From Pseudomonadota bacterium (GTDB lineage: Bacteria > Pseudomonadota > Gammaproteobacteria > Burkholderiales > Rhodocyclaceae), in contig JAGTRY010000022.1 of assembly GCA_018262235.1 (NCBI GenBank), forward strand, positions 1 to 42,214: a stretch of DNA of 42,214 nucleotides, given 5' to 3'. Below the pieces are notes generated by a model. The model had not been told where the DNA came from. It worked only from the letters and a program-made list of their open reading frames with translations, and made no database searches. The position numbers and the translations under genes were made by a program. Shown here one piece after another: positions 23,009 to 28,656 of this stretch (within the stretch, counting starts at the first letter, position 1; each line of letters opens with the position of its first letter).

Positions 23009-23983
23009 ATGTCAAAGATATTTGCAGACAACTCGCAATCCATCGGTCATACACCATTGATCAAGCTCAACCGCATCGCGGACGGAGCGGGCGCAACGAT
23101 CCTGGCCAAGATTGAAGGGCGCAATCCGGCCTATTCGGTCAAGTGCCGTATCGGTGCGGCGCTGATCTGGGACGCAGAAAAGCGTGGCCTGCTCGGACCG
23201 GGCAAGGAGCTGGTGGAACCCACCAGTGGCAACACCGGGATCGCCCTGGCGTTTGTGGCTGCTGCGCGTGGCATTCCGCTGACCCTGACGATGCCCGAAA
23301 CCATGAATGTCGAACGGCGCAAATTGTTGCTGGCCTATGGGGCCAAGCTGGTGCTGACCGAAGGCGCCAAGGGCATGGCCGGAGCGGTGGCCAAGGCCGA
23401 GGAAATCGCAGCTTCGGATCCCAAGTACGTGCTGCTGCAGCAGTTCAAGAATCCGGCCAATCCGGCGATTCATGAAGCGACCACCGGCCCGGAAATCTGG
23501 GAAGACACGGATGGTGCAATCGACATCCTGGTCTCCGGCGTGGGCACGGGCGGCACCATCACCGGTATCTCGCGCTTCATCAAGAACACCAAGGGCCGCG
23601 CCATCACCTCCATCGCGGTGGAACCGACGACCAGCCCGATCCTGACCCAGACCCGCAATGGCGAGCCGGTCAAGCCAGGACCGCACAAGATCCAGGGCAT
23701 CGGCCCGGGGTTCGTGCCGCAAGTGCTCGATCTCTCGCTGGTCGACGCCATCGAGCAGGTCAGCAGCGAAGATGCCCTGGCTTTTGCCCGGCGTTTGGCG
23801 CGCGAAGAAGGCATCATCTCCGGCATCTCCAGTGGTGCCGCCGTGGCCGCCGCCGTGCGGGTGGGGCAGCGGCCCGAGAATGCCGGCAAGACCATCGTGG
23901 TGATCCTGCCGGATTCGGGCGAACGCTACCTCAGCTCCGTGTTGTTCGAAGGTCTCTTCGACGCAACCGGCCTGCCTGTATGA
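23009..23983 (+). CDS. cysK: Cysteine synthase A (O-acetylserine sulfhydrylase)
   Basis: 324 residues, PLP-dependent: makes cysteine from O-acetylserine and sulfide. Lys45 in AYSVKCRIG holds PLP, TSGNTG binds the substrate carboxylate, and [11 protein letters not shown] binds the PLP phosphate; [10 protein letters not shown] is near the C-terminus. Full length, ending normally. Start ATG 23009 has GGAGG just upstream. It is cotranscribed with the rhodanese, and it is the last intact gene before the large convergent gene, whose stop lies 33 bases away. Confidence 0.95.
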
Positions 23984-24016
23984 ACCTGTACCAAAGAGAA
24001 TGAGATTTAAGAGGAT

Positions 24017-27000
24017 TCAGAAACCTTCCTTTCTAAGGTTGGCATTTACATCCTCTCGTGCTCCGTCACGTTCATACCAGATAGCAAGACTTTCCAGCAC
24101 CGCAGCCACATTTGGGTGAGTACTCTGCATTCGTTCAGCTTGGTCACGGTAGGAGGTGGCGAGTGTGCGTTCCAGCTCGCCGCCGTCACAAGGTGAACGG
24201 CAGGTAACCCCTCGCTTGTTGCATGTTCCAATGTAAAATCCACTACGCATTTCGTCCATGTCAGACCCGTCAAGGATTTCTCGCGCAGGAAGGAATGGCC
24301 AAGTCCCATCTTCGTCCGCAGGGCCATGCGCGAAAATCTGGCCGAGGGCCCTGTCGCATGAACCAATTCGATCCACAGTCATGCATAGGTTGCGTGCGGA
24401 TTCTATAAATCGAGCGAATTCAGCAGGATCTATTTTTCCGTTGTCCTGCGTGCCGGGTTGTCGTTTGCAGGCATGCAATATTTTCCATCCCACATGTGCT
24501 TTGGCTTGAGTCGCTTCCGTTAGCTCTTCGCGTTCACCATGATCAGGTTTGAACGTCAAGCAGATGAGTTCCTTGAACAGTTCTGGTTCGGACATGACCC
24601 CTTCGTACAGCGCCCGGGCGCTGCCTTCATAGCCATAGCTCAGAGCAGGGAATAGACTGAATTCAAGCTGAATCAAGGTCGCTCTATCGATCTCGCTTGA
24701 TGCTTCCAAGCGCTGTAGCATCTTATCGAGATGCCAGGAATCGATCATGTTTACATCCGCCTCTTCACCTGCCAATAAGTGTTGAAGCGCGTCCATGAGT
24801 AATCCCGATGACATTTTATCGAGGTCGAATTCGCAGCAATGCAGTGCAGTACGCGGGCGCTTGGCTTGGAGCAGACTTTCGACAATATGGCCAAGTTCTG
24901 TGTCGTAACGCCAGTATCCTGGACGTACCTGTTGCCAGTAATGCATTTCCACTTCCGGGCCGCATTCCTGCGCTAGTGTCCACGTCTGTGTATGAATTGG
25001 AGCCAGAGCCAGTAGGCGTGCGAGTTTTTCAGAAGACCAGCTGTTGGTTTTGCCCAGCTCAATGACGGATGAAAGCACTTTGTTATCTGCAAAGCCAGGC
25101 GAACCTAATAGGCTGGAAATGCACCAAGAATGTTTTTCCATCGGCAGGAACTCTCCACCGAAATCTGCAATCCATTGCGACCATGGAAAGGTGTTTCCCA
25201 CAGCCTGAACTAATGGATTTCCAATAGAGCCTGGTTCAGTGCTTGTTTCAATCAAGTGTTCGATTCCGGGCATGCCTTGAGCGCGAAAAATTTCACTGAG
25301 TGCGGCAATCCTGGCGCGCGTGACAAGTTCTATTTTTGCGTTCGAGTCGTTCAGTCGGTCATCGCAAGGCAGTTCCGGCCAATGGTTTCCGAATAGCCAG
25401 CGATGGCGAACAATCAGATCATGCGGGGCGAGTCGTTCGTACATTTCTTCGACTGGTTTCAGCCATCGATCCAACTCTTCTGTCGGCGCATCGTCATAGT
25501 TGCGGCGCCAATGGATGACTCTCCTGAGCGCTTTGCGCAGCAAGTCACGATCCTCATCAATCGCTTGCTTGGTGGAGAATGGTTCCATCAAAGACAGAAC
25601 TTCTGGCATATCGTCCTGGTGCGTCAGTACGTTGTGTTCAAGCAAGGATGCAATTCTTGAAGCATTGTGATGACTCAGTCGGATGATTCTTTCTCGCGCA
25701 GCGATCTGCATGGCCTGAACCTCTGCAACTGTCACGCCATGGCCTGCCCCCGCGTCATCTTCGCGCCATTTCGGTTGTGCAGCAGGGCCTGCCATTTGCG
25801 GTCCGCCTGAGCCGAGAGCGATGAGGACATCAAATGCCACATCAGGGTAATGGGCAATCAATTTGTCCAGTGTTGCGATTCGCGCCGGTAGGCCTGCTGC
25901 TGTACGCGGCAGCCACGAACGAAAAAGGCCGAAAAGGCTGGAGGCTGGGGTGTTGCTCCAGTTCCCTTTGACAGGTTCGTGACTGAGTTGCGCCAGAATC
26001 AAGGCGACGCGGGTCAGACGGTTTGGCGCCCAAGCAAGCGTTTCCAAAGCCCAAAGAAGTCCTGCGTGCCAACACCGGCCACCAAATCCGGTTGTGCTGC
26101 CTGTCTCGGAAATCAGGTGAAGAACAGGCGGGTTGGCTTGGCGAAGACTCTTTTCAATCGCCTTCAGAAATGCGTCCGGCGCAGCTTCGGCCAAAGCAGG
26201 AAGATGGCTTGCCAAAGACAACCAGCGAATTTCATCTGCGGTATCGAAAAGATCGTGAATCAATCGATCTACACGGCCGTCTATGTGGAGGTTTTGCAAG
26301 GCAGGGAGTTCCACGCCACGAACGGCCAACTTGATTAGAGAATCGCAGATGGCCTCGAACAATAAGCCTGAGTGGAGGTGAATTTTTCCGTAGACCTGTG
26401 CCTTCCAGCGTTCTTCATCTGGAAGCTCAAGCTGTGGGTCTGGGGTCTCCAGAATCGTTTTCGCTATTGAGAAAAAACGATCCAGTTGCCCGGTTGTGAT
26501 GCGGTTGCCGATTTGCCCCAATAATTCCAGAGGTGATTTCGCTTTCCATACGTCCCCGATCTTCAACAATGGGGCGTCATCCATTGCTGCGAGTGCGTGC
26601 AGGTCTTGTTCAATGTCTTCATATGAACGGTTTGCCAAATCCGTCACGACTGCCTTGTCAGCGTCTTTGCGTGAATTCCATGCTCCGAGCAAACACAGCA
26701 AGGTCAGACAGTTCGCTTGAGGCGTATCCAGCCATGCCGGGTGACGAATAGCCGGGTTGATGGCATTGGTCCGCCGAAAGACAGTCCAGGATCGTCCCGT
26801 ATTCAAGGCCAGGCGTCTGGCGTCAGATTCTTCAACGCCGATTGATACCAAAGCCTTCTCGTACTCATAGATCCCGGGTCTCTCCAGCGTCAGCTCGTCG
26901 CTATATGTTTTACCCGTCCAGTTACCTGTTGCCTGAGGGATGACCACAAGAAGCTTGGGTCGAGAGACGGGGCGAGTCGCCACTTCTGCGTTTGCCGCAA

Positions 27001-27790
27001 TGACCAGTCTGAGTTGCGGATTTGCATCCACGTAACGCCAACCAGTTTCGTCCGTCACAACGACTGCTTCGTCTTGAATACTGCTGAGATGTATGGCAGT
27101 CGCAGTGCAAAAGGCGACGGCCTCTTCCACACTTTCTGCCCGAATCGTCAGTGACGAAGAGGAAGGCGAAACCTCTGATAATTTTGCGGAAAGTTCATCC
27201 CGTATTTTGATGCGGTCAACAAATAACGCATCGGCAGTAATGGCAGGAGCACATTGCTGCGACCATATCTGCCAATAGCGTGACAGGCTTTCAATGCCTG
27301 GCCCGCTCAACCCTAGCTCTTCACCAAATTGCAAAGCAACCGCAGGTGTTTGCTCAAGCCATTGCTCTAGATCATCAGCATCGTAGGCGCGTACCTCGGC
27401 CCATTCATTTCGCGCTTCTTGGGCGGCAATCCACTTGCGTTTTCCTTTCCATCTTCTGGGAGAAACAAACACGAATGTGCAGGAGTGGCGCTCTTCATCC
27501 GATGTACTCTTCGTGCGCTTTCGATACTCTCTGTTGGCTTTTGCAGTGACTGTCTGATCGCATCCTATTTCCCAGCGGGATGCGCCTTTCGGAATCCATG
27601 CATTACCTTGGTCGCTGAACAGGACGCCATCCCAACCAGGCATAAAGGTTGAGTCTCCAGAAGGGAAAGACAGCTGGCGGGTTGCGTTCGGATCGAAGCA
27701 AAGTCGCCTTATCCATCGCGGCAGGTTTGCCTGTGCTTCCTTTGAGTGGTTATCGACCCAATTTATGATGTGTGAGGCGGTGATTCTCAA
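24017..27790 (-). CDS. Large protein with nuclease-like N-terminus; candidate single-gene defence
   Basis: I do not recognise a named family. I place the start at TTG 27790 (1257 residues): GGAG lies about 5 bases upstream, and the sequence from there (RITASHIINW, LPRWIRRL) looks like a proper N-terminus; GTG 27850 and ATGs at 27844 and 27841 are alternatives. Residues ~30-170 resemble a PD-(D/E)xK-type fold: GWDG, WEIG, then KANREYRKRT, TFVFVSPRRW and YDADDLEQWLEQ. Residues ~185-330 look like a P-loop NTPase relative without a true Walker A (GNWTGKT is one residue short). A winged-helix-like stretch lies near 385-425, and the rest is helical, HEAT/TPR-like. No signal or membrane helix. GC is about 52%, so it was probably acquired by transfer. 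It separates cysK from a cysteine desulfurase remnant. Confidence 0.6.
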   Translation of the reverse strand: MRITASHIINWVDNHSKEAQANLPRWIRRLCFDPNATRQLSFPSGDSTFMPGWDGVLFSDQGNAWIPKGASRWEIGCDQTVTAKANREYRKRTKSTSDEERHSCTFVFVSPRRWKGKRKWIAAQEARNEWAEVRAYDADDLEQWLEQTPAVALQFGEELGLSGPGIESLSRYWQIWSQQCAPAITADALFVDRIKIRDELSAKLSEVSPSSSSLTIRAESVEEAVAFCTATAIHLSSIQDEAVVVTDETGWRYVDANPQLRLVIAANAEVATRPVSRPKLLVVIPQATGNWTGKTYSDELTLERPGIYEYEKALVSIGVEESDARRLALNTGRSWTVFRRTNAINPAIRHPAWLDTPQANCLTLLCLLGAWNSRKDADKAVVTDLANRSYEDIEQDLHALAAMDDAPLLKIGDVWKAKSPLELLGQIGNRITTGQLDRFFSIAKTILETPDPQLELPDEERWKAQVYGKIHLHSGLLFEAICDSLIKLAVRGVELPALQNLHIDGRVDRLIHDLFDTADEIRWLSLASHLPALAEAAPDAFLKAIEKSLRQANPPVLHLISETGSTTGFGGRCWHAGLLWALETLAWAPNRLTRVALILAQLSHEPVKGNWSNTPASSLFGLFRSWLPRTAAGLPARIATLDKLIAHYPDVAFDVLIALGSGGPQMAGPAAQPKWREDDAGAGHGVTVAEVQAMQIAARERIIRLSHHNASRIASLLEHNVLTHQDDMPEVLSLMEPFSTKQAIDEDRDLLRKALRRVIHWRRNYDDAPTEELDRWLKPVEEMYERLAPHDLIVRHRWLFGNHWPELPCDDRLNDSNAKIELVTRARIAALSEIFRAQGMPGIEHLIETSTEPGSIGNPLVQAVGNTFPWSQWIADFGGEFLPMEKHSWCISSLLGSPGFADNKVLSSVIELGKTNSWSSEKLARLLALAPIHTQTWTLAQECGPEVEMHYWQQVRPGYWRYDTELGHIVESLLQAKRPRTALHCCEFDLDKMSSGLLMDALQHLLAGEEADVNMIDSWHLDKMLQRLEASSEIDRATLIQLEFSLFPALSYGYEGSARALYEGVMSEPELFKELICLTFKPDHGEREELTEATQAKAHVGWKILHACKRQPGTQDNGKIDPAEFARFIESARNLCMTVDRIGSCDRALGQIFAHGPADEDGTWPFLPAREILDGSDMDEMRSGFYIGTCNKRGVTCRSPCDGGELERTLATSYRDQAERMQSTHPNVAAVLESLAIWYERDGAREDVNANLRKEGF

Positions 27791-27926
27791 AGCGCTCTCC
27801 AGTAATGTTCGATGGGTTCTATGTGGCCTGATATCGCACATCATATGCACAAATATATGGCGAAGAGATTTTGTATAAAGTCTGGATGCCCCCGCGAGTG
27901 CTGTTTCGGCAGTTTACGGTTCGTGA
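27791..27926 (-). promoter_or_regulatory. Upstream region of the large gene and right insertion boundary
   Basis: Read toward the large gene, a TTTATA at about -35 distance and TATATT at about -10, 16 bases apart (around 27856-27882), form a plausible sigma-70 promoter. The region is A/T rich, unlike the flanking sulfur genes. Similarity to cysteine desulfurase begins just right of an in-frame TGA at 27924-27926, so the foreign DNA ends near here. I see no terminal repeats or target duplication matching the left side (23984-24016). Confidence 0.35.
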
Positions 27927-28109
<183 letters not shown>

Positions 28110-28166
28110 GTGTTGATCCGGGCGCTTCGCTGAACCTGCTGCGTCCGGTCGTGATTCGTTGTGATG

Positions 28167-28204
28167 AACAAGCCAATGGCCGCTCATGCGGCCATTGGCT
28201 TGTT
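28167..28204 (+). terminator. Perfect 16-bp hairpin after the desulfurase remnant
   Basis: Arms 28167-28182 and 28189-28204 are exactly complementary (core GCCAATGGCCG) with a 6-base loop CTCATG. There is no long T run, only TTGTTGTG. It most likely ended the ancestral sulfur operon transcript. Confidence 0.6.
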
Positions 28205-28230
28205 GTGTGATGGACTTTGTGGAGAACGGA

Positions 28231-28656
28231 ATGGAATGTACGGTCAGATGGGCCGGCGAGGCCCGCTTTGTGGCTTCGACCGGGAGTGGTCATGAGGTGC
28301 CCATGGAAGGTGGTGCAGGCGCGCTGGGGGGGTACAACCAGTTTCCGAGACCGATGGAGTTGATCCTTGCGGGCGCCGGGGGTTGTACTGCGTATGACGT
28401 GGTGCTTTTTCTGAAACGGGATAATTATGTGGTTGAAGGTGTCGAGGTGGTACTGGATGCCCAGCGCGCCGAGACGGAACCGAAAGTATTCACCCGCATT
28501 GACTATCACTACGTGGTGCGTGGCCGTGATCTTGATCCGGATGTGGTGGAGAACGTGATCAAGCTGTCTGCCGAGAAATACAGTTCGGCTACCGCGATGC
28601 TCGGCCACACTGCGCAGATCAACATCGGTTTCGAAATCGTGGATACGGCGGGCTGA
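28231..28656 (+). CDS. OsmC/YhfA-family thiol protein with second Cys replaced
   Basis: 141 residues, OsmC-like fold: CTVRWAGEARFVA, SPM-like FPRPMELILAGAGGCTAYDV with the peroxidatic-type Cys52, and RIDYHYVVRGRDL. In E. coli YhfA the second cysteine sits in SAEKYCS; here the same place reads SAEKYSS, so Ser118 replaces it and a classic two-Cys peroxidase cycle is not possible. Start ATG 28231 has GGAG 7 bases upstream; the longer reading begins inside the terminator hairpin. Likely function: organic hydroperoxide or reactive-sulfur handling, needing an external thiol. Confidence 0.88.
   Translation: MECTVRWAGEARFVASTGSGHEVPMEGGAGALGGYNQFPRPMELILAGAGGCTAYDVVLFLKRDNYVVEGVEVVLDAQRAETEPKVFTRIDYHYVVRGRDLDPDVVENVIKLSAEKYSSATAMLGHTAQINIGFEIVDTAG

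Follow-up and report, generated by a model that had tools for sequence, protein, structure and literature searches.

Receptors of the STAND and NLR (nucleotide-binding leucine-rich repeat) type occur in bacteria, plants and animals and are regarded as switches driven by ATP. An endonuclease can be joined to a sensor, as in Cap4. Avs3 and Avs4 (AVAST; 8dgc, 8dgf) carry a nuclease, a STAND domain and a helical region in one chain. PMC12724215 describes Avs as an ATP-dependent STAND switch: the receptor recognises a phage terminase or portal protein and forms oligomers with ATP. PD-lambda-4 is listed under P-loop NTPase in a section of PMC10952713, and this name was not found in the main text of PMC9519451 under the words tried. 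Here we describe a gene in a window of 42,214 nucleotides (the whole of positions 1 to 42,214 of contig JAGTRY010000022.1, assembly GCA_018262235.1, from a member of the Rhodocyclaceae). Its product is probably a horizontally acquired, single-gene, Avs/NLR-like receptor against phage (or mobile elements), with a nuclease effector and a switch that does not depend on ATP.

The original prediction had reported an unrecognised protein of 1257 residues, and a single intact frame of this length was confirmed on the minus strand. A longer frame is also available.

24017..27790, minus strand: whole gene, TTG start, 1257 amino acids, uninterrupted frame with a start matching most of the closest relatives
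24017..27850, minus strand: alternative longer frame, GTG start, 1277 amino acids

The TTG start is preferred because the residue it encodes at 27790 corresponds to the 'MR' beginning of most of the closest relatives and because GGAG lies directly upstream. The window protein matched no Pfam family, gave only noise below the cut-off with NCBIfam, and gave a single weak collinear match in PADLOC 2023, to PD-Lambda-4_A (E 0.0027). A likeness to Cap4/DUF4297 proteins had been proposed; Pfam matched no such domain, either in the window protein or among the 17 Pfam families of the members of A1, a 17-member family alignment used as profile and query.

Structures were predicted with AlphaFold2 for residues 1-1200 (71 sequences; mean predicted local distance difference test score 90.2, predicted template modelling (TM) score 0.73) and for residues 1-440 (70 sequences; 94.1 and 0.90). 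Four parts follow one another along the chain.

27311..27790, minus strand: residues 1-160, PD-(D/E)xK-type fold, predicted order alpha-beta-beta-beta-alpha-beta-alpha-beta (AlphaFold2, and homology to the D...QxK region of PD-Lambda-4_A relatives)
26888..27175, minus strand: residues 206-301, P-loop/STAND-like alpha/beta domain without Walker A (AlphaFold2, profile alignment, Foldseek and family alignment)
26531..26683, minus strand: residues 370-420, winged helix (secondary structure of both models)
24020..26530, minus strand: residues 421-1257, all-helical half, candidate sensor (AlphaFold2 for 421-1200; joined to other N-termini in relatives)

The N-terminal domain is predicted to contain a helix (16-31), three strands (37-41, 55-59 and 69-75), a helix (81-95), a strand (104-109), a helix (117-126) and a strand (132-136), and helices also lie between the alpha/beta domain, whose modelled core spans 213-301, and the winged helix, modelled at 376-417, after which the rest of the model is helical. 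The motifs GWDG and WEIG and a KAN..Y..R helix had been read from the sequence as spaced like those of PD-(D/E)xK nucleases, and the rest of the chain as a degenerate NTPase without Walker A, a winged helix and a long helical C-terminus. The models and the family alignment bear out each of these, and the predicted topology fits a nuclease core.

In Foldseek searches the long model matched Avs4 first (7.4e-7, TM-score 0.18, root-mean-square deviation 24). The N-terminal model had Avs3 (4.3e-7) and Avs4 (1.6e-5) on top; below them came SAMD9, Apaf-1, many AAA proteins, CED-4 and plant NLRs. The matches to Apaf-1, CED-4, plant NLRs and SAMD9 (E 1e-4 to 3e-2) are mixed with general AAA proteins; these receptors have other effectors, and the P-loop is missing in the window family. 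A sequence search of the PDB with the A1 profile gave matches better than E 0.02 only within a helix-turn-helix (HTH) part carried by some relatives (60 of the 63 matches listed). Weak matches outside it include a designed P-loop ATPase (0.022, profile 276-389).

The conserved positions fall on this architecture. Motif counts refer to 89 aligned full-length family rows, 87 of them distinct.

27629..27631, minus strand: codon of Asp54 (GWDG), candidate metal ligand, Asp in 89/89
27569..27571, minus strand: codon of Glu74 (WEIG), aligned by hhalign to Gln of QxK in PD-Lambda-4_A relatives, Glu in 89/89
27539..27541, minus strand: codon of Lys84, candidate for a catalytic lysine that has moved to the helix following the third strand, Lys in 89/89
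27119..27139, minus strand: residues 218-224 (AESVEEA; family A-D-S-x-E-E-A), near the place of Walker A, close to the aligned GxxGxGKT of PD-Lambda-4_A relatives

In the models Asp54 lies just ahead of the second strand and Glu74 on the third, which fits the order of a PD-(D/E)xK core except that x-K is x-G/S, with Lys84 in the next helix. The nuclease assignment is made because of this predicted topology together with homology to PD-Lambda-4_A. The N-terminal stretch of residues 1-160 is among the best conserved parts of the protein.

The motif GxxxxGK[ST] was found in the STAND-like domain of none of the 89 rows; chance matches occur elsewhere in three (L035, L047 and L004). At about the place of the P-loop the family instead has A-(D/E)-S-x-x-E, with Ala218 in 82/89 rows, Asp219 in 74 and Glu there in 11, Ser220 in 81/89, and at position 223 Glu in 87/89 and Asp in 2/89. 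With the P-loop missing from all of the family rows examined, switching by ATP in the usual manner would not be possible. Two features of Avs are thus present here, the N-terminal PD-(D/E)xK effector (by predicted fold and conserved D/E/K) and the long helical C-terminus (421-1200 all-helical, with a putative role in sensing), whereas the STAND NTPase with Walker A/B is not.

Among named proteins a close one is PD-lambda-4 protein A (PADLOC PDLC03991/PDLC03990), which has a similar domain order and length class. Matches to it at 1e-6 were found in 8 of 274 genomes of the class. An alignment (A6) was made from five of nine PD-Lambda-4_A loci, two strong and three more distant. All five sequences share DGG(V/I)D ... 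Q(V/I)K and GxxGxGKTR; they have D...Q(V/I)K, an intact Walker A (GxxGxGKT) and a Walker B-like strand, whereas the window family lacks Walker A and the standard lysine. The family profile (A2) aligned with A6 in hhalign at a probability of 98.3% (E 1.4e-14, 722 columns, residues 2-801), and the N-terminal part alone gave 90.9% and 1.1e-6. In the alignment over residues 2-801 WEIG falls on FQVK and the P-loop falls near AESVEEA. Single sequences gave barely any BLAST match (best E 0.014), and in hmmscan PDLC03991 was matched by 9 of the 17 A1 members at E 0.1 or better, with a best value of 5.4e-5. Because the profile alignment is strong, the BLAST and hmmscan matches are weak, and Walker A and the standard lysine are gone, the family appears from sequence comparison to be a diverged homologue of PD-Lambda-4_A that has lost its P-loop and altered its nuclease site; by score it is not a member. 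The layout of nuclease, degenerate NTPase, winged helix and helical sensor, and the likeness to Avs, are thus backed by the models, by Foldseek and by this profile match.

From these features we infer how the protein may work. The PD-(D/E)xK-type domain would be the effector, and the helical C-terminal half (residues ~421-1257) would detect a component of the invader, with the winged helix and the STAND-like domain linking the two. Once the helical half had bound its ligand, the protein would as a direct result rearrange or dimerise, setting free the nuclease, presumably metal-dependent, to degrade the DNA of either the invader or the infected cell. In relatives with a fused HTH, this part would probably bind the promoter of its own gene and hold expression low. 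Within the helical half the least conserved stretch is residues 841-920 (25031-25270; mean majority 0.27-0.34), which is a candidate for a ligand-reading surface.

The helical half also occurs with other N-termini. Eleven relatives were found on viral contigs. Three of them (L157, L158 and L165) have the whole layout, and seven (L156, L159-L163 and L166) are homologous only over residues ~344-1252, at 26-30% identity, in proteins of ~1180 amino acids; L159, L160, L161 and L166 look alike. In these seven the shared half is preceded by ~280 residues with 'GFDTDDL ... GQ(I/V)KH', which form another nuclease-like domain, and judged by length they apparently have no STAND-like domain. Two of the seven were scanned and had no Pfam or PADLOC match, and a PDB sequence search with the GQ(I/V)KH domain gave nothing below 0.04. 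The Escherichia coli relative WP_000182525.1 likewise shares residues ~344-1252 behind a GQVKH/GQIKH-type N-terminus; in the one record examined it is adjacent to tail-fibre and other lambda-like prophage genes. The L159 type is present in 8 of 5426 E. coli genomes, in 7 of them with at least 80% of the query, and the L162 type was not found in phage records. In two further loci the sensor half has as its neighbour a small, separately encoded protein that carries the Het-E N-terminal domain (PF20701), which also occurs in NLR-like proteins of fungi.

L023, 9570-12661: sensor half beside a separate PF20701 protein, Buttiauxella plasmid
L164, 5552-8706: sensor half beside a separate PF20701 protein

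The gene family is patchy, laterally transferred, and found on plasmids, chromosomes and viral contigs. Three of the eight genomes of the genus match A1 at E 0.001, and two of these (G074 and G122) have only HTH-sized pieces near 1e-3, leaving the gene in 1/8. Counting the window's own genome, matches were found in 7 of 199 genomes of the taxonomic family, those of G006 and G118 being in pieces, and, at E 1e-30 or better, in 12 of 398 genomes of the phylum, where G507 and G540 likewise have pieces; the gene is therefore not fixed at one locus among its relatives. The copy of G118 (L006, L008 and L009; G118:C1:789888-796056) is split into pieces spread across 6 kb, with additional DNA between them, as if interrupted. 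A scan of species-genome contigs with the single window sequence found no relative. One scan of 84,980 species genomes with a single conserved peptide pattern from A1 found 542 relatives at a tblastn E of 1e-3 or better, of which 80 were kept. Plasmids carry the family in 23 records, 17 of which cover at least 80% of the query, and 12 of the 23 were typed conjugative; phage records gave a single distant match.

The FastTree tree of the same 89 rows includes Pseudomonadota, Bacillota, Acidobacteriota, Planctomycetota, Chloroflexota, Nitrospirota and others. On it an Azohydromonas row (Sphaerotilaceae) forms a pair with the window gene (support 91), which belongs to a starred set of four with a Desulfobulbaceae and a Myxococcota row, a grouping that argues for lateral transfer. 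Copies in two genomes of the window's own family (G180 and G028) are identical to loci of Parazoarcus communis and of a Rhodocyclaceae metagenome-assembled genome (MAG). Close members (L046 and L054; branches 0.017 and 0.15) were also seen in a Gammaproteobacteria MAG and a Planctomycetota MAG, which reflects either recent transfer or a binning error.

The name PD-Lambda-4_A implies a B component. No recurrent partner gene was found among 451 neighbouring open reading frames (ORFs) of 100 amino acids or more at the 89 loci, and no neighbour family within 4.5 kb recurs in more than five of them; the two commonest are transposase-like and integrase-like by sequence. Among 11 annotated plasmid loci (L010, L012 and L017 carry no annotation and were left out), five have a clear defence-type gene within 10 kb, and in L018 and L021 the defence neighbours are arguable.

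L013: restriction endonuclease
L014: AbiE
L015: Shedu-like
L016: type I restriction-modification
L019: SIR2, AbiEii and an abortive-infection protein

Sulfur-related genes (SulP, YeeE/YedE and serine acetyltransferase) were also seen within 10 kb of some relatives (L013:1-2999, L022:1-95 and L167:16109-16654), probably by coincidence.

Several points weigh against a receptor of the Avs/NLR type. The Foldseek matches to Avs have low TM-scores (0.18-0.33) and root-mean-square deviations of 11-27; it is the ranking and not the superposition that carries weight, since low TM-scores are seen in flexible multidomain chains. For the helical half the matches ranked behind Avs4 include a 90S component (1.5e-5), karyopherins (from 3e-5) and other helical repeats. 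The PADLOC match of the window protein itself is weak, and no member with a tested phenotype was found in open-licence PMC papers. At position 76, the site of the standard lysine, 84 of the 89 rows have Gly and 5 have Ser, with the invariant Lys eight residues later; catalysis is not assured because the standard lysine is replaced. The neighbourhood of the relatives speaks in favour of such a receptor, with limits. The 127 nearest ORFs of loci L024-L103 matched 232 PADLOC models (cut-off 1e-10), including restriction, GajB-like, reverse transcriptase, CapP-like and Mads models, and a set of 127 of the 222 ORFs more than 6 kb away matched 90; these figures count models and not genes, the ORFs were not gene-called and one ORF can match several models. 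Among the 25 models listed per set, each near model is matched by at most 2 of the 127 ORFs, and the distant set has defence models too (Mads, methylases, NucC, AbiEi and reverse transcriptase), so the difference is only a rough enrichment. Four plasmid loci (L011, L020, L022 and L023) are without a clear defence neighbour, and the plasmid counts have no control. The window gene itself sits among metabolic and transport genes, outside any recognised defence island: a scan of 10 neighbouring ORFs assigned 8 to transport, rhodanese, kinase or regulator types and gave no match for the other 2. Overall the interpretation of the original prediction is supported and sharpened, its defence role being a putative one.

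An N-terminal HTH extension is common in the family, unlike in PD-Lambda-4_A protein A. By length of the extension 58 of the 89 rows are of the HTH type and 31 are short, two of these being cut by contig ends. Among the 17 A1 members Pfam matched HTH_3 in 10, HTH_31 in 10, HTH_17 in 3 and MerR_1 in 1, with no convincing match outside the HTH. On the tree the HTH label needs 4 changes, against a mean of 24.6 when shuffled, so that the HTH was gained or lost more than once. A distant PD-Lambda-4_A relative (L144:520-813) starts, by eye, with an apparent Cro/C1-type HTH, and HTH fusion may therefore extend beyond the P-loop-less family. With its REase-type (restriction endonuclease) fold, its DNA-binding-type modules (the winged helix and, in the 58 extended rows, an HTH-length part) and restriction genes among the neighbours, the family could consist of type IV-like restriction enzymes that depend on modification or sequence; DNA would then be read directly by the helical half together with the winged helix or HTH, and the nuclease would cut foreign DNA, with no protein ligand and no suicide. 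We consider this unlikely. A helical half of more than 800 residues and an Avs-like match of the whole chain resemble protein-sensing receptors, and the HTH cannot be the general reader of targets because it is absent from the 23-row clade of the window gene.

Only a little less of the probability goes to a nuclease-like domain without catalytic activity that would act as a scaffold or bind DNA, with the protein working in some other way, such as regulation or the recruitment of a host nuclease. Gly or Ser at the standard lysine in all 89 rows, and a following domain without a P-loop, would agree with this. Set against it are the invariance of Asp54, Glu74 and Lys84, the conservation of the N-terminal domain, and the GQVKH/GQIKH domain of the sensor-sharing relatives, which keeps the QxK form.

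The HTH also raises the question of autoregulation. GTGTA-N4-TACAC occurs upstream of 13 of the 58 HTH rows and GTGTA-N11-TACAC upstream of 11; in one mononucleotide shuffle any such dyad reached at most 2, and in the HTH-less set at most 2 of 29. These operator-like dyads are suggestive only, because the rows are related. One relative is named HigA family antitoxin in RefSeq. The name, the dyads and the 23 plasmid records could together indicate an addiction or maintenance module of plasmids and islands, with an antitoxin-like HTH autorepressor and a nuclease toxin, and not anti-phage immunity. This is improbable, given that no partner recurs among the neighbouring ORFs of 100 amino acids or more, that the clade of the window gene has no HTH, and that addiction would not need a large sensor half.

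The site in which the gene lies had been described as an insertion into a sulfur operon; a foreign gene does lie beside cysK, but the site is a partly replaced type 2A encapsulin operon and not a simple insertion.

23009..23983, plus strand: cysK, intact (PALP 1.5e-74), final codons differing from congeners at the junction
27927..28109, plus strand: cysteine desulfurase remnant, last 60 codons and stop (comparison with congener loci)
28219..28656, plus strand: OsmC-like gene beyond the replaced segment, same in G011 and G122

Four loci of the same genus (G011, G122, G199 and G074) were compared, in which the order is cysK, serine acetyltransferase, type 2A encapsulin and cysteine desulfurase. 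In G011 the frames after cysK encode a hexapeptide-transferase resembling serine acetyltransferase, an SrpI-like encapsulin of type 2A (1.1e-101) and a cysteine desulfurase (Aminotran_5, 4.4e-148); G122, G199 and G074 have frames with similar beginnings and a desulfurase frame of 618-661 residues, and SrpI-like matches are present in G122 and G074 too. The OsmC-like gene then follows the desulfurase in G011 and G122. Homology of the window to G011 and G122 ends at 23970, at the end of cysK, and restarts at 27926, within the 60 C-terminal codons of the desulfurase, which agrees with the earlier description of an intact cysK and a beheaded desulfurase. About 4.0 kb of native DNA (3,995 bp in G011) was thereby exchanged for 3,955 bp (23971-27925), with loss of the serine acetyltransferase-like gene, the SrpI-like shell protein and most of the desulfurase. 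Family 2A encapsulins are described in part of PMC8049743 as nanocompartments of sulfur metabolism. No SrpI-like match was found in the window's own genome, a draft that is 97% complete, and no convincing target-site duplications or terminal repeats flank the insert. The arrangement, judged from sequence alone, may reflect misassembly; the gene itself is intact. Between the desulfurase stop and the OsmC-like gene lies a perfect 17-nt inverted repeat with a 4-nt loop, terminator-like (28167-28204).

The gene has a GC content of 52.5% and the foreign piece 52.2%, against 60.9% in the window outside the insert; the gap for the gene is 8.4 points, smaller than the 10 or so points first estimated. 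At third codon positions GC is 51.5% in the gene and 77.2% in cysK. A promoter-like region had been claimed and is not above chance, with 2 sites in 23800-28300 against 2.7 +/- 1.6 in shuffles; one 9-of-12 promoter-type site lies on the correct strand (27879-27852).

We also considered whether a sensor of phage capsids would react to the HK97-fold encapsulin and be incompatible with it. No exclusion was seen, and the idea was dropped because an SrpI-like protein co-occurs in 2 of the 7 gene-matching family genomes (G081, and G118 with its copy in pieces), compared with 47 of 199 overall.

An ordinary housekeeping gene of the sulfur operon, for which one could cite the position beside cysK, sulfur genes 7-10 kb off in two annotated plasmid loci (SulP and YeeE/YedE in L013, SulP in L022), one PALP gene among the 127 near ORFs and a serine acetyltransferase ~0.6 kb from the E. 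coli sensor-sharing relative, is very improbable and is rejected by the distribution (1/8, 7/199 and 12/398), by the absence of the gene from the 7 other genomes of the genus, in four of which the loci read keep the encapsulin-operon genes at the site, and by the low GC, patchy occurrence and lack of any sulfur gene family recurring beside the gene.

The family is largely invisible to current annotation: Pfam and NCBIfam do not recognise the window protein, PADLOC 2023 does so only weakly, and Pfam matches none of the 17 A1 members convincingly outside the HTH, yet a single scan found 542 relatives. More tentatively, and as a possibility we hold short of probable, its members may be NLR-like receptors that have permanently given up the nucleotide switch, with A-D-S-x-E-E (Glu223 in 87/89) having taken over the P-loop site, which would not be decaying, and the domain now serving as a ligand pocket or mechanical hinge. 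The HTH-fused chain would then be repressor, sensor and killer in one, and the sensor would have been exchanged between effectors, in the viral-contig relatives apparently without any NTPase domain. A family spread over many phyla, with a receptor layout and no P-loop in any of the 89 rows, would be a natural test of the role of the nucleotide, and suggests that helical sensors can couple to nucleases without one.

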